From positions 1-46,707 of the forward strand of contig JAPOXY010000241.1 in assembly GCA_026706845.1 (NCBI GenBank): 46,707 nucleotides of DNA, written 5' to 3'. The stretch's first letter is position 1. Each line of letters begins with the position of its first letter. A program made the translations under genes and the position numbers. The notes below the pieces were generated by a model. The model had not been told where the DNA came from. It worked only from the letters and a program-made list of their open reading frames with translations, and made no database searches. Source of the stretch: Gemmatimonadota bacterium (GTDB taxonomy: Bacteria; Latescibacterota; UBA2968). Shown here in pieces: positions 26,885 through 34,569 of this stretch.

Positions 26885-27781
26885 ATGTCAGAACAGAAAT
26901 ATCGCGTGGCACCGCCGGGGTTTACGCGGGATCAGTGGGACGAATTTCAAGAGGATGGCATGCTCGTTGTGGAAGACGCACTGACAGACGAGGAATGCGA
27001 TCGCTATATCGAGATGATGGATGCTGCAGCTACCCGCAGTGAAAAATACGATTCAGCGAAATTTTTTGGTCCAAACAATATCGTAGAACGGTATCCCGAA
27101 TTTGCCGAGTTGATTGATCATCCCCGGCATATCGGTTTTATGCACGATGTGTATGGCGAATTGTTAAAGCTCCATATTTCTCAATTTTTTTTGCGTCCCC
27201 GCGATACGAGCCGCAACAAGTGGCATCCCGATGGCGCACGCGCAGTGCCCTATGGCGTTTTTTCACCGGTTTTGCCCATACAAATCAAAGTGGCGTATTG
27301 GCTGACTGATCTTCCCGATCCGGATATGGGAAATTTTGTCTATATGCCCGGCAGCCACAAGGGGCAGTATTTTGATTTTTACGATACCCATGATGAAGTT
27401 CCCGGCGAAAAAGTAATTTGTCCAAAGCGCGGCACGATGACGTTTATGCACTGCAATACCTGGCATCGCGTGGCGCCCAATAATACGGATACCGTGAGAA
27501 AGAACATCTTTTTGGCTTATTGTCCGTCGTGGATTTGCGAAGCGGACAGGCACCAATGCGATCCCGATTGGCTCGCCACGCTCAACCGCGAGCAGCGCAT
27601 TATTATGCGAAGCTATAATGGCGGATATGCGAGGACCAAGCCCGCAGCCAGTGAATTTCCGCTCTTTCTGGATCGGGAAACGGGTTCTGATCGAGACTAT
27701 GGCGTTTGGCCCGATCACGTTGCGTTGCATCGGCGCAAACGCATGACCACCGTTGAAAAATTTGAGTTGGCATCCGCTTGA
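26885..27781 (+). CDS. Phytanoyl-CoA dioxygenase-family (PhyH) Fe(II)/2-oxoglutarate oxygenase
   Basis: The protein has 298 residues. The facial triad is visible: H114-x-D116 in 'WHPDG' and H194 in 'NTWHRVAPN', with R205 in 'VRKNIFL' in place to hold 2-oxoglutarate. 'YMPGSHKGQY' is the common family segment before the second half. These soluble enzymes hydroxylate diverse small molecules, including ectoine, phosphonates and natural products. An agaggaga site precedes the ATG. The stop region abuts the D-2-hydroxyacid dehydrogenase gene, whose ribosome site follows at once, so the two probably act in one pathway: hydroxylation, then oxidation or reduction of a 2-hydroxy acid. Confidence 0.9.
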   Translation: MSEQKYRVAPPGFTRDQWDEFQEDGMLVVEDALTDEECDRYIEMMDAAATRSEKYDSAKFFGPNNIVERYPEFAELIDHPRHIGFMHDVYGELLKLHISQFFLRPRDTSRNKWHPDGARAVPYGVFSPVLPIQIKVAYWLTDLPDPDMGNFVYMPGSHKGQYFDFYDTHDEVPGEKVICPKRGTMTFMHCNTWHRVAPNNTDTVRKNIFLAYCPSWICEADRHQCDPDWLATLNREQRIIMRSYNGGYARTKPAASEFPLFLDRETGSDRDYGVWPDHVALHRRKRMTTVEKFELASA

Positions 27782-27795
27782 TGCAGGAGGCTGCT

Positions 27796-28740
27796 GTGAA
27801 AGTATTGATTAACGATCGCCTGGACGATCACCACCTGGTACAGATTCAATCGTCGGTTGATGATATCGACCTGATTATCCCCGAGTCAAGTGATGATGCG
27901 CTGGAAATTATGCCCGAAATTGACATCATTTTTGGGGGTATGAGCCGCGATATGTTCAAACGTGCCGAACGCTTGAAGTGGGTGCAGACCTGGGGCGCGG
28001 GCGTCGATGGCATGATGTATGCCGAATTTATCCATAGTGAGGTGATTCTGACGAGTGCAAAGGGCACTGTGGGCGTTCATTTGTCGGAACACGCGATGGC
28101 TCTTTTGCTCGGATTGACGCGAGGAATTGCGCGCGCGGTCCGAACGGCTGATTGGAATGAGCGTATGCCCATTCGCCACGCATCGTGGGAATTGATCGAT
28201 AAAACAATGGGTATTGTGGGGTTGGGGGGCACTGGATGCGATGTGGCAATTCGGGCGCATGCGTTTGGCATGAAAATTATAGCTGTTGATCCAGAAGACG
28301 TCGAGGTGCCAGACTGTGTAGAGGCATGCTGGAAGATGGATCGTTTTTACGATCTTTTATCCGCGTCTGACATCGTGGTGGTCTGCTGTCCATTGACAGA
28401 GGAAACGCGCGGGCTTTTTGACCACCTGGCATTTGAGAAGATGCAGAATCACGCGCTTTTGATCAATGTCACGCGGGGTAAAATTATGGATGACGCCTCT
28501 CTGGTTGCGGCATTGGAAACCGGACAGATTGCCGGGGCGGGGTTAGATGTGACGCCACAAGAGCCATTGCCGGACGATCATCCGCTGTGGCATATGCCCA
28601 ATGTTATTATCACACCGCATACTGCAGGGGGGTCTCCCAATAGACAGGATCGCATTGTGAATCTGTTTTGCGAAAACTTGCGGCGTTTTCTGAATGGGGA
28701 AGATATGCTGAGTGTGATCGATAACAATAAGGGGTATTGA
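27796..28740 (+). CDS. D-isomer-specific 2-hydroxyacid dehydrogenase
   Basis: This 314-residue NAD-dependent enzyme interconverts a 2-oxo acid and its D-2-hydroxy acid. The nucleotide motif 'GIVGLGGTG' (139-147), R227 in 'VTRGKI', E256 in 'PQEPLP' and H275 in 'TPHTAGGS' are the conserved binding and catalytic residues. GTG 27796 is chosen because caggagg (27784-27790) lies five bases upstream, and the protein begins 'MKVLIND' as in the family. Earlier ATG and TTG codons would place the ribosome site inside the gene. It is 14 bases from the PhyH gene. The specific acid is unknown. Confidence 0.92.
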   Translation: MKVLINDRLDDHHLVQIQSSVDDIDLIIPESSDDALEIMPEIDIIFGGMSRDMFKRAERLKWVQTWGAGVDGMMYAEFIHSEVILTSAKGTVGVHLSEHAMALLLGLTRGIARAVRTADWNERMPIRHASWELIDKTMGIVGLGGTGCDVAIRAHAFGMKIIAVDPEDVEVPDCVEACWKMDRFYDLLSASDIVVVCCPLTEETRGLFDHLAFEKMQNHALLINVTRGKIMDDASLVAALETGQIAGAGLDVTPQEPLPDDHPLWHMPNVIITPHTAGGSPNRQDRIVNLFCENLRRFLNGEDMLSVIDNNKGY

Positions 28741-28752
28741 ATACGTTTTCTC

Positions 28753-28782
28753 TTGACACAATGTTACATATATATTGATATT
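28753..28782 (+). promoter_or_regulatory. Candidate promoter upstream of the structured leader
   Basis: A perfect TTGACA (28753-28758) lies 18 bases before GATATT (28777-28782), which matches four of six -10 positions. Downstream, perfect TATAAT hexamers occur at 28817-28822 and 28829-28834, but neither has a good -35 box at the right distance. Transcription from this region would read into the hairpin and terminator element that follows. Confidence 0.45.
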
Positions 28783-28840
28783 TACAACGAAGCAGGTGCT
28801 GGCGTGTATTACTCAGTATAATTCTAAATATAATGGTCTC

Positions 28841-28927
28841 GGGCAAGGGTGACTCGAGGTCATGTGCCCTTCTCTCAAGTAGGAATCCCTGTGTTGGGAT
28901 CACCGAATCGGGAGAAGGGCGTTTTTT
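28841..28927 (+). promoter_or_regulatory. Attenuator/riboswitch-like leader with competing hairpins
   Basis: Hairpin 1 forms from GGGCA (28841-28845) with TGCCC (28865-28869) and, inside it, TGAC (28850-28853) with GTCA (28859-28862). Hairpin 2 is an intrinsic terminator: GCCCTTCTC (28866-28874) pairs with GAGAAGGGC (28912-28920) and is followed by G and six T. Bases 28866-28869 belong to both, so the two structures exclude each other. The terminator loop holds two small stems, ATCCC/GGGAT and CCG/CGG. I do not recognise a known riboswitch class. The DUF6785 gene starts 65 bases after the T run. Confidence 0.7.
28866..28927 (+). terminator. Intrinsic terminator in the DUF6785 gene leader
   Basis: A nine-base perfect GC-rich stem (28866-28874 with 28912-28920) is followed by six T (28922-28927). 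It could simply end the upstream PhyH/dehydrogenase transcript, but its 5' arm is also used by a competing upstream hairpin, so conditional read-through into the membrane protein gene is plausible. Confidence 0.82.
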
Positions 28928-28991
28928 GTGTGGCAGCACCCTTGTAAGGCGTTATATTAGGCGGTCAGAAAGGTAAGAAGGAGGTTTTTGA

Positions 28992-30938: not shown

Positions 30939-30966
30939 AATTAACCTTTTTCGAGGAGTTGTGGGA

Positions 30967-32058
30967 ATGAAAATTACAGGTATTGAACTCGACGCCGTGC
31001 GTGTCAATCACCGGGGGGATTGGGTGTTTGTACATGTGCTTACAGATGAGGGTATCCGGGGAATAGGGGAGATGCGCTCGGGAAGCAATTATGCGGCGCA
31101 ACTATCGGCTTTGCGCGCTCTGGGTGAAACGGCCAAAGGATGCGATCCGAGAAGGATTGAAGCTTTTGTTTCGCGCTATACAAGCACAGAGCGCACAAAG
31201 GTGGAATTGTTCGCCTTGAGTGCATTTGAACAGGCATTGTGGGACATTTTGGGCAAATCGCTCAATGTGCCCGTTCACGCGCTTTTGGGGGGCGCGTGTC
31301 GAGACGAGATCCGGCTGTATGCCAATATCAATCGGGCGACGACGGACCGTTCGCCTGAGGGATTTGCCAAGAATGCCGCTGCTGCGGTGGCAGAGGGGTT
31401 TGATGCGGTCAAGTTGGACCCTTTTGACGGGGTGCGCGGTGCCGACAATGCCAGAGACGCTGCAAGGGGTATTGCGTGTATGCAAGCAGTTCGTGAAGCT
31501 ATCGGGACAGAGGTCGATTTGCTCGTGGATTGTCACAGTAAGTTCACGGTTCGCGGCGCGATTGAGGTCGCGGATGCGTTGCGCGATGTCAATCTGTTCT
31601 GGTTTGAGCAACCCACACCCGAAGCGAGTCTCGATAATTGTCTTGCAGTTAAAGAAAGGTGTGGATTGACCATTGCGGGAGGCGAACAGCGGGGCTTGCG
31701 ACGGGATTGGGTTGAGGTGGTGGAGAATCTCAGCATGCATATTCCCATGCCCGATGTGACGGTTGTGGGCGGTATCGGCGAGTTAAAAAAAATAGGGGAT
31801 ATGCTCCACGCCTGGGGGCTGCCCACCGCGCCACACGGTCCCTTTGGTCCGGTGGTGATCGCGGCTGGCGTGCATGCGATGGCTTCTTTACCCGGATTTC
31901 TCATTCTGGAATACGGATGGGGAGAGATTCCCTGGCGAAAAGATCTGACTATTCCCGGCGAGGAGATTGTGAATGGACGCATTCGCATCAATGATCGCCC
32001 GGGCCTCGGCGTTGAATTAAATCCCGAGATGGTAGAGAAGCATAGAGTTCAGGTATAG
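30967..32058 (+). CDS. Mandelate racemase/muconate lactonizing-type enolase-superfamily enzyme (acid-sugar dehydratase-like)
   Basis: The protein has 363 residues. All metal ligands are present: D188 ('LLVDCHSKF'), E214 ('FEQPTP') and E240 ('AGGEQRG'). H190 follows the first ligand, K149 ('DAVKLDP') lies on the second strand, and H290 in 'APHGPFGP' is the general acid-base position seen in galactonate- and related acid-sugar dehydratases. ATG 30967 follows gaggagtt (30952-30959); the GTG six bases earlier is less well spaced. The likely reaction is dehydration of a sugar acid to a 2-keto-3-deoxy acid. It is coupled to a DUF6785 transporter upstream and a TIM-barrel isomerase downstream. Confidence 0.9.
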   Translation: MKITGIELDAVRVNHRGDWVFVHVLTDEGIRGIGEMRSGSNYAAQLSALRALGETAKGCDPRRIEAFVSRYTSTERTKVELFALSAFEQALWDILGKSLNVPVHALLGGACRDEIRLYANINRATTDRSPEGFAKNAAAAVAEGFDAVKLDPFDGVRGADNARDAARGIACMQAVREAIGTEVDLLVDCHSKFTVRGAIEVADALRDVNLFWFEQPTPEASLDNCLAVKERCGLTIAGGEQRGLRRDWVEVVENLSMHIPMPDVTVVGGIGELKKIGDMLHAWGLPTAPHGPFGPVVIAAGVHAMASLPGFLILEYGWGEIPWRKDLTIPGEEIVNGRIRINDRPGLGVELNPEMVEKHRVQV

Positions 32059-32095
32059 ATAGGATAAGGTTGACTAAAATACAAAGGAGTATTCG

Positions 32096-32953
32096 ATGTT
32101 TAAAAGTCTCAATGCGGGTGCTATTGGTGTAAGAGGTAGCGTTGATGAGTTGATCGGCTATGCAAAACGCGCTGGATTTCAGGGGGTTGATCCCAGTATT
32201 CAGGAGATTACTTCTCTGGTCAATGCGCATGGTGCAGAACATGTAAAAGGGCTGTTTGCCGATGCTGGTTTGAGAATAGGTGCGTGGGGTTTGTCTGTGA
32301 ATTGGCGAGGCAATGAAGCTGAGTACAAAGCCGGTCTATCAAAACTGAAAGAGTTTGCTGCTGCCGCTGCCGCTGTGGGGGCTACGCGGGCTGCTCAATG
32401 GGTGCCTTCTGCTTCTGAAGACCGCAAATTTGGCGATAATTTAAGGTGGCATATTGATCGCTTTAAGCCGATTGCCGAAATTCTGGGTGAGCATGGATGT
32501 AGCCTGGGGCTGGAATTTATTGGGCCGCGCACTCTACGGATTGATAAATCTTATGGATTTATTCATTCGATGGATGGCATGCTCGCACTTGCCCATGCGA
32601 TTGGCACCGGCAATGTGGGGCTGCTTCTCGATTGCTGGCACTGGTACACGGGATTGGGGACTATATCAGACCTGATGGCTATGACCGCTGAAGATGTGGT
32701 GCATGTCCACGTCAATGACGCACCCGATGGCGTTGATGTGAGCGATCAGATTGACAATAAGCGGGCATTGCCGGGTGAGACTGGCGTAATTGACCTGGTT
32801 GGCTTTTTGAGCGTGCTGCAAAAAATTGGCTATGACGGCCCGGTGTCGCCCGAGCCTTTTAGCCAGTCGGTGCGGGAAATGGCGGCGCAAGATGCTGTGC
32901 AAACAACACACGACGCGCTGGATAAGAGTTGGCAAGCCGCTCAGTTATCCTGA
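32096..32953 (+). CDS. Xylose isomerase-like TIM barrel sugar epimerase/isomerase
   Basis: This 285-residue protein of the AP_endonuc_2 superfamily has probable metal ligands E140 ('LGLEFIG'), D179 and H182 ('LLLDCWHW'), H205 ('VHVHVND') and E253 ('VSPEPF'), a set seen in tagatose/psicose epimerases, hydroxypyruvate isomerase and inosose enzymes. A caaaggag site precedes the ATG. It lies 37 bases after the enolase-type gene and 11 bases before a SIS isomerase, forming a compact carbohydrate operon. The exact sugar is unknown. Confidence 0.87.
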   Translation: MFKSLNAGAIGVRGSVDELIGYAKRAGFQGVDPSIQEITSLVNAHGAEHVKGLFADAGLRIGAWGLSVNWRGNEAEYKAGLSKLKEFAAAAAAVGATRAAQWVPSASEDRKFGDNLRWHIDRFKPIAEILGEHGCSLGLEFIGPRTLRIDKSYGFIHSMDGMLALAHAIGTGNVGLLLDCWHWYTGLGTISDLMAMTAEDVVHVHVNDAPDGVDVSDQIDNKRALPGETGVIDLVGFLSVLQKIGYDGPVSPEPFSQSVREMAAQDAVQTTHDALDKSWQAAQLS

Positions 32954-32964
32954 GGAGAATTGCG

Positions 32965-33519
32965 ATGGAGGCTTTTGTCGAGAATTATATCGCACAAAAT
33001 TTGACCTTGCTCAAGTCGCTGGATGCTGGGGCGATAGCCCGTATTATTGCCGAGTTTGGCAAGGCGAGAGATGCGCGCAAGAGAATTTACGCCATCGGGA
33101 ATGGAGGCAGCGCGAGTACGGCGTCGCATTTTGTGAACGATATGGGCAAGGGGGCTTCAATTGGGCGCGAAACGCGTTTTAAGACGATTCCGCTGACGGA
33201 TAATGTGGAATGGATGACGGCGTTGAGCAATGATTTGTGTTACGAAGATGTATATGTCGAGCAATTGAAAAATTTTGCAGAGCCAGACGATGTTTTGCTG
33301 GCGATAAGTGGGAGTGGAAATTCAGAAAATGTGTTGCAGGCGGTGCGGTATGCCAACGATGTGGGCTGTGTTACTATTGGGTTTACGGGATTTGAAGGAG
33401 GAAAGCTGAGAGAACTCGTTCAACATTGCGTGGTGATCCCCTCTGACCACATGGGGCGTATCGAAGATATGCATCTTATTTTGCAACACATGATTTGTTA
33501 TTATTTTATCGAACAGTGA
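32965..33519 (+). CDS. SIS-domain phosphosugar isomerase, GmhA-like
   Basis: The 184-residue cytoplasmic protein matches sedoheptulose-7-phosphate isomerase in size and layout: 'IGNGGSASTASHFVNDM' (44-60), 'ALSNDLCYEDVYVEQL' and 'AISGSGNSENVLQAV'. A late 'IEDMHLILQHMICYYF' helix resembles the E...H active-site helix of GmhA. GmhA supplies the heptose of lipopolysaccharide, but no gmhB or heptosyltransferase is close. In this neighbourhood it may act on a catabolic sugar phosphate. ATG 32965 follows cctgaggaga, and the earlier in-frame TTG lies within the preceding gene. Confidence 0.85.
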   Translation: MEAFVENYIAQNLTLLKSLDAGAIARIIAEFGKARDARKRIYAIGNGGSASTASHFVNDMGKGASIGRETRFKTIPLTDNVEWMTALSNDLCYEDVYVEQLKNFAEPDDVLLAISGSGNSENVLQAVRYANDVGCVTIGFTGFEGGKLRELVQHCVVIPSDHMGRIEDMHLILQHMICYYFIEQ

Positions 33520-33528
33520 GCATTATGC

Positions 33529-34569
33529 ATGGTTCGACTATTTGGGTTTCTGCTCATTCTCGCGCTCGGATCCGAGATCGGGTATCTCTATCAGTTGCTC
33601 AAAGGGCAGGTCGCGCTTCTGTGGCGAGCAGAATCCATTGAAAAAGTGCTGGAGGCGGGAAAGCTTTCGCCCGATCAGCGCGCAAAATTGGAACTCGTAC
33701 AGGCTATTCGCACATTTGCCCAACGCGAAATTGGTCTGAACACCTCGAAAAATTACACTAAGTATGTCGATATCGGGCGCGGGCCAGTGTCGTGGAATCT
33801 CGTTGTTTGTCCCAAAGATCGCCTCGAACCGCTGGAGTGGTCTTACCCGGTTGTGGGCGCGGTTCCCTACCGGGGATATTTTGATCGATCAAAAGCCGAG
33901 GAAGCGCGCGATCAATATGTGGCTGAGGGGTATGACACATATTTGCGACCGGTGAGCGCGTATAGTACGCTGGGGTGGTTTTCCGATCCGGTATTGAGCT
34001 CTATGTTGCGTTATTCCGAAGGCGATCTGGCCGATCTCATCATTCACGAGTTGACGCATGCAACTGTGTGGATTGAAGGAGATGTTACCTTTAATGAGAG
34101 TCTGGCGAGTTTTGTCGGTGAAACCGGGGCGTTGATGTGGTTGCAGCGCAAATACGGTACAGATTCCGAAGTAGTGCATCGGGTGCTTGACGAGCGTGCA
34201 GATGGTGTTGTTTTTCGGAAATTTATGCGCGATATTGCTTCTCGCCTCGATTCACTTTACCAGTCCGATTCTCCCCAGAAAATAACGCTCCGCCAGCAGA
34301 TTTTCGATTTCGCACGCACAGAGTTTCGCACTCTCCCTCTTAAGACTGAGCTATATGCCCGATTTCCTTCGTGGAAACTCAACAATGCGCGGATGGCGCT
34401 TTACCGGATTTACCGGGAGCGTACGGATGTTTTTGCGCGCGTGTATCTGATGTGTGATAGTGATTTAAAAGCTACGGTTGAGGTTTTGTACCAGTGCGCG
34501 AGCGCAGAGGATCCGGGATTGTGGCTGGAGGAATGGTTGCGTAAAAATCAGGATAAGGATTCGCTATGA
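33529..34569 (+). CDS. Aminopep-family (DUF2265) zinc aminopeptidase
   Basis: The protein has 346 residues with an N-terminal hydrophobic anchor or signal ('LFGFLLILALGSEIGYL'). The zinc motif H173-E-L-T-H177 and the glutamate in 'FNESLASFVGE' (E190) form a gluzincin-like site. The middle 'RGYFDRSKAEEARDQYVAEGYDTYLRPVSAYSTLG' pattern, cited here in outline, is typical of the family. Such proteins are predicted periplasmic aminopeptidases with little biochemical characterisation. It starts nine bases after the SIS gene and overlaps the next gene by four bases (ATGA), so it is translated with a sugar oxidoreductase. Confidence 0.85.
   Translation: MVRLFGFLLILALGSEIGYLYQLLKGQVALLWRAESIEKVLEAGKLSPDQRAKLELVQAIRTFAQREIGLNTSKNYTKYVDIGRGPVSWNLVVCPKDRLEPLEWSYPVVGAVPYRGYFDRSKAEEARDQYVAEGYDTYLRPVSAYSTLGWFSDPVLSSMLRYSEGDLADLIIHELTHATVWIEGDVTFNESLASFVGETGALMWLQRKYGTDSEVVHRVLDERADGVVFRKFMRDIASRLDSLYQSDSPQKITLRQQIFDFARTEFRTLPLKTELYARFPSWKLNNARMALYRIYRERTDVFARVYLMCDSDLKATVEVLYQCASAEDPGLWLEEWLRKNQDKDSL

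Follow-up and report, generated by a model that had tools for sequence, protein, structure and literature searches.

A conserved RNA core with a loop-E-like module in its terminator lies upstream of a DUF6785 gene in Latescibacterota and may belong to an undescribed small RNA family

Analysis of the window (the whole stretch of 46,707 nucleotides, contig JAPOXY010000241.1, from a bacterium placed by GTDB in Latescibacterota) revealed a structured RNA core of ∼92 nt (28834-28927, 94 positions) ahead of a DUF6785 gene, an arrangement found in 11/11 genomes of the genus. The core consists of a hairpin, P1, and an intrinsic terminator hairpin with an internal loop-E-like module. We propose, with about an even chance of being right, that the window copy is a self-contained small RNA gene, made of promoter, core and terminator, and that it belongs to an RNA family of Latescibacterota that has not been described. 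The first-pass annotation had suggested an undescribed regulatory RNA at this place; a conserved structured RNA between the putative promoter and the DUF6785 gene is indeed borne out by covariation across genera, and it matches no Rfam family. The features of the locus and the related sigma-54 units are listed in the table.

Features of the locus (window coordinates) and related sigma-54 units in other genomes (genome:contig:position)
Feature	Position	Strand	Details
D-2-hydroxyacid dehydrogenase gene, upstream neighbour	27778-28740	+	PF02826, E=4.4e-54
Putative distal promoter	28753-28782	+	-35 TTGACA 28753-28758, 18 nt, -10 GATATT 28777-28782; sigma-70-like
P1 hairpin	28834-28862	+	28834-28843 paired with 28853-28862; loop CAAGGGUGA (28844-28852)
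P1 loop AGGGU, candidate pseudoknot with GCCCU 28866-28870	28846-28850	+	complementarity
Intrinsic terminator hairpin	28866-28927	+	stem 28866-28876/28910-28920, T6 28922-28927; -30.6 kcal/mol
Loop-E-like module within terminator	28878-28907	+	AGUA 28878-28881, GG ... CC, GAA 28905-28907
Possible second promoter, 3' of terminator	28930-28958	+	GTGGCA, 17 nt, TATATT; weak
Ribosome-binding site of DUF6785 gene	28977-28984	+	GAAGGAGG; sequence
DUF6785 + DUF6784 membrane protein gene, 648 aa	28992-30938	+	PF20581, E=3.7e-111; PF20580, E=5.6e-27
Sigma-54 units, intergenic	G002:C375:8774, G003:C5:149233, G004:C48:21976, G033:C13:9670		TGGCAY-N5-TTGY, CTCTGAGTGNTACC, terminator
Sigma-54 units, intergenic	G032:C23:17283, G040:C65:29957, G058:C39:14586		TGGCAY-N5-TTGY, CTCTGAGTGNTACC, terminator

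Across relatives P1 is 8-10 bp long, its loop in the window type (type 1) follows the pattern C-N-R-GGG-U-G-A, and a spacer of 3-5 nt separates it from the terminator helix. The terminator is retained in all 11 genus genomes, with a run of 6-7 T, and is followed by only 4 T in G033 and G003; since these two genomes keep the whole hairpin with only four T, selection beyond termination is indicated. Within the hairpin the module GUAGG...CCGAA is near-invariant, and the apical stem that caps it (28885-28889/28896-28900) varies in length and sequence, still pairs and covaries. AGUAGG...CCGAA probably adopts the loop-E/bulged-G form, a three-dimensional motif. The 161-nt leader as a whole folded somewhat better than shuffled sequence (z = -1.99).

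Within the genus, 85/94 core positions are invariant and the mean identity to G000 is 98% (11 genomes), compared with 78% for the 51 nt before the core and 89% for the 64 nt after it. The box of the distal promoter is at 94% mean identity over the same 11 genomes, against 78% for the next 51 nt. Conservation thus marks out what appears to be a functional unit, in which two variable spacers set a rigid core apart from the promoter before it and the gene after it. The first copy outside the genus (G002:C435, in a sister genus) is 80% identical and carries a compensatory change in P1, from G-C to U-A at 28843/28853. A covariance model, R1, was built from the genus copies plus G002:C435 and detected G033:C79 (67 bits), G002:C157 (64), G003:C24 (61) and the more distant G002:C62 (35). 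In alignment A7, which comprises 11 rows of genus and other-genus copies and, being fitted to the model, is biased towards the structure, 98.2% of cells were paired and two-sided changes were seen in 20/26 pairs. None of 500 shuffles reached the observed values, and slid registers gave far lower ones. By helix, two-sided changes occurred in 6/8 counted pairs of P1 (98.8% of cells paired), 9/11 pairs of the terminator stem and 5/7 pairs of the apical stem. The effect is large in spite of the model-fitted alignment, and the fold supported by these data is P1 plus a terminator helix with a loop-E-like module.

The first-pass annotation read the leader as two mutually exclusive hairpins that share GCCC at 28866-28869. 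These bases do begin the 5' arm of the strong terminator. The upstream partner, in which GGGC (28841-28844) pairs with GCCC and UGAC with GUCA, can also form, and when bases 28834-28870 were folded alone it was the best hairpin (-14.1 vs -10.8 kcal/mol for P1); therefore mutually exclusive pairing is, by this calculation, physically available in the window sequence. This partner is not, however, the conserved first hairpin. As an element conserved outside the genus it was rejected, since 3/8 of its pairs are lost in G002 and none covaries, and the nascent 5' region of four divergent type 1 relatives folds as P1 instead. Covariation, sought in both hairpins, was thus found in the terminator and in P1, which is another pairing, but not in GGGC/GCCC. 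The conserved P1 does not overlap the terminator, so that both can form together, and the switch is not supported in the form proposed. The sole conserved route to mutual exclusion would be a candidate pseudoknot between RGGGU of the P1 loop and GCCCU of the terminator arm. Both motifs are present in every type 1 sequence; their bases are invariant, without covariation, and this constancy amid covarying surroundings would fit a double use.

The idea of a sensor for the transported compound fared less well. In other genera the core stands ahead of an unrelated operon for cell-envelope functions, in G002 a sigma-factor gene in convergent orientation intervenes before DUF6785, and distant relatives resemble stand-alone sigma-54 RNA genes or 3'-UTR elements, so a sensor of this kind is unlikely; no ligand is indicated. 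The absence of a leader peptide was confirmed: a single reading frame spans the core, with its ATG at 28833, but in G014 a one-base insertion in the loop interrupts it, and in G002 the ATG is missing.

Transcription of the core may start near 28789, from the distal promoter. Its box is a 10/12 consensus match, although the region holds just as many such matches as expected by chance, and it is retained even in G014, the most divergent genus member. The boxes 3' of the terminator (9/12 consensus match, chance level) are conserved in 10/11 genus genomes, with varying sequence between them, and are absent in G014; they could, weakly, supply DUF6785 with a separate promoter. A sigma-54 promoter right after the terminator (TGGCAGCACCCTTGT, 28931-28945) was also considered and judged a chance match, because most members of the genus lack its -12 box. 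Downstream of DUF6785 (window 30961-34569) lie genes for an enolase-superfamily sugar-acid dehydratase-like protein, a xylose-isomerase-like TIM barrel, a GmhA-like SIS protein and a PF10023 aminopeptidase, which suggests sugar-acid catabolism.

Within the genus, window-type copies lie 5' of DUF6785 in 11/11 cases. For almost every copy of the window type, a co-directional gene lies no more than ∼250 nt away, which is the pattern of leaders. Outside the genus the neighbours differ. In G002 and G003 the copies precede an operon coding for a Zn-ribbon protein, DUF4398, YkuD, an Era-like GTPase and LPG synthase (cell envelope), and the G033:C79 copy precedes a Zn-ribbon/DUF4398/YkuD operon, with a decayed response-regulator frame in between (L047:3166-3536). 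The G002:C435 copy lies 3' of a dehydrogenase/enolase-like operon and is followed by the convergent sigma-factor gene and then by DUF6785. This sigma-70 family gene, on the opposite strand (L051:5382-6107), may have been inserted since the genera diverged. The downstream genes have no common pathway; the core family is not tied to one downstream gene.

Covariance searches revealed relatives of the core beyond the genus, in further genera and families of Candidatus Latescibacterota; a distant type among them was found with two further covariance models, R2 and R3. Its P1 loop reads GUGGUACCGAUUGGUC, and GUGGUACCG is near-invariant in it. The case for relating the window type to the sigma-54 type rests chiefly on the terminator module (R1 matched G002:C62 with E=4e-5; R3 matched G003:C24 with only 0.0025). 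In G002, G003, G004 and G033 the distant type lies between dnaE and aroA; the G032:C23 copy adjoins aroA as well, yet is oriented away from that gene and runs into the 3' end of a gene for an FtsX-like protein. In seven genomes from several families a sigma-54 promoter of the TGGCAC-N5-TTGC type precedes a common CTCTGAGTGGTACC motif by 29-31 nt, the motif CTCTGAGTGNTACC standing exactly 29-31 nt past the -24/-12 promoter in G002, G003, G004, G032, G033, G040 and G058. A sigma-54 box was seen upstream in G016 as well, and none of the other one-mismatch motif matches, among those listed, had a sigma-54 promoter. The terminator lacks the loop-E module in the G040 and G058 units. RpoN is encoded in 60/64 genomes of the phylum. 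It is likely that the seven short intergenic units constitute a sigma-54 small RNA family of Latescibacterota.

Copies of a third group lie directly 3' of orthologous genes for one protein, in four genera (G002:C62, G033:C42, G003:C31 and, as a tandem pair, G032:C71). The protein begins with MPIF, ends with ILAQ and belongs to no Pfam family. These copies (L333, L339, L335, L310 and L338) carry an additional 9-bp hairpin with a constant loop, UCGGAGUGG, in which nearly every pair has changed in a covarying manner. Copies without a co-directional gene downstream were observed at G032:C23, G058:C39 (convergent gene), G002:C62, G033:C41 and G002:C435 (convergent sigma gene). Weak matches in G055 (R2) and in G006:C244, G001:C19, G039, G022 and G024 (R3) proved to be ordinary terminators or coding DNA and were not counted.

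As the first-pass annotation had stated, no riboswitch class could be recognized. Rfam gave no match to the window core, either with the whole window at gathering thresholds or with the leader at E values up to 10; for 15 relatives searched at E up to 0.5 there was no match save one irrelevant sub-threshold miRNA. A search of 44 genomes from other groups with R3, run without a positive control, returned nothing at E≤0.01, and degenerate-pattern scans of viral contigs and of bacterial contigs from other phyla gave mostly chance matches among the matches listed. Rescanning of 80 contig loci with R2 yielded one strong match, a genus member. With the searches used, which were limited across phyla, the core RNA family appears only in Latescibacterota. 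In the literature we found no mention of DUF6785 and nothing on a Latescibacterota riboswitch of this kind.

Under the small RNA hypothesis, the RNA would be transcribed from its own promoter (28753-28782) and would usually end at the built-in terminator near 28927, releasing a free RNA of ∼140 nt that may act in trans. The terminator hairpin with its loop-E module would be part of the functional RNA, as a binding site for a protein or another RNA, and a contact surface would be provided by the P1 loop, which has RGGGUGA in the window type and GUGGUACCGAUUGGUC in the distant one. Most transcription of DUF6785 would begin at a promoter 3' of the terminator, or else result from read-through; some cis control of read-through may coexist, because the P1 loop can pair with the terminator 5' arm. 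We favour a small RNA for the window copy because the family overall resembles small RNA genes or 3'-UTR RNAs built on a common core, and a promoter box and a terminator frame the conserved core. Several points count against it: DUF6785 follows all 11 genus copies, nearly all copies of the window type are placed as leaders would be, the kinship with the sigma-54 type depends mostly on the terminator module, and the consensus match of the second promoter, which is absent in G014, does not exceed chance. Hfq is the usual sRNA chaperone, and no Hfq homologue was found in any of 64 phylum genomes in a search that did match control genomes; this argues against an ordinary Hfq-type sRNA, not against binding of another protein or RNA.

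The serious rival is a cis-acting transcription attenuator or riboswitch of DUF6785 with a corrected switch, in which RGGGU/GCCCU, or GGGC/GCCC in the window genus, gives the antiterminated state and a ligand or factor on P1 or the loop-E module sets the balance. We regard it as possible, though doubtful, and retain it because a gene follows the window type almost without exception and the pairing of loop and arm is preserved. The constant position ahead of DUF6785 in the genus speaks for it, as do the operons that follow window-type copies elsewhere, the invariance of RGGGU and GCCCU amid covarying pairs in the remainder of P1 and in the inner terminator, and the preference of the nascent genus 5' end for the GGGC/GCCC hairpin. 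Such an attenuator is harder to reconcile with a conserved P1 that is compatible with the terminator, with an alternative hairpin that is broken in G002 and does not covary, with downstream genes that share no pathway, and with several relatives that have no downstream gene at all.

It is improbable that the element is a mere terminator or insulator ending the upstream 2-hydroxyacid dehydrogenase operon, even though the terminator is strong, lies 126 nt past the operon's stop codon, and a copy in G002 likewise follows an operon end. P1 and the terminator-internal loop-E module are conserved, neither being needed for termination, and because they covary across genera the core must be more than a shared operon end; furthermore, a promoter-like box lies between operon and terminator, and the structure is kept in G033 and G003 in spite of their short T-run. 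A relic or offshoot of a tRNA-sensing T-box-like element seems very improbable. It was suggested by the distant-type sequence GGUGGUACCG, which we take to equal the T-box core, UGGNACC bulge included, by the near-invariance of GUGGUACCG and by aroA, an amino-acid pathway gene, which adjoins several copies. Rfam gave no T-box match for the 15 loci at E up to 0.5, and UGGNACC is absent from the window type; neither Stem I nor a specifier loop would be possible in the distant type, because the sigma-54 promoter lies just 29-31 nt upstream of the motif.

Returning to the small RNA reading and extending it to the whole phylum, we tentatively envisage, at somewhat less than an even chance, a phylum-specific family of RNA regulators in which the intrinsic terminator doubles as a loop-E recognition module, and in which sigma-54 small RNAs, 3'-UTR RNAs and 5' leaders are linked by a common contact motif, in bacteria that lack Hfq. 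The covariation adds an RNA family to a phylum that is almost uncultured and in which RNA regulation has hardly been described, and points to selection on a terminator hairpin for its internal module. Because the family has both sigma-54-driven and leader-like versions, it allows cis and trans roles of one RNA core to be set side by side.

Among known systems, attenuators and riboswitches with an intrinsic terminator resemble the core in having a structured leader that extends from promoter to gene with a terminator at its end. The core differs in that it apparently has no conserved mutually exclusive antiterminator, it has no Rfam class, the terminator itself carries the most conserved internal module, and some relatives have no downstream gene. 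T-box riboswitches have GGUGGUACCG in common with the distant type; no relative searched matched them in Rfam, the core family lacks Stem I and specifier, and the T-box core motif is absent in the window type. Sigma-54-dependent sRNAs such as Qrr, GlmY/GlmZ and CrcZ come from short genes that have -24/-12 promoters and end in an intrinsic terminator. The distant type alone shares this promoter and terminator arrangement; the core family differs from these sRNAs in the lack of Hfq in the phylum and of sequence kinship, and in the sigma-70-like promoter of the window copy. The glutamine riboswitch (glnA RNA) contains a GUAGG ... CCGAA loop-E-like module within a junction-based aptamer. This module is common to both RNAs, with no Rfam match at E up to 10, and in the core it interrupts the terminator helix.
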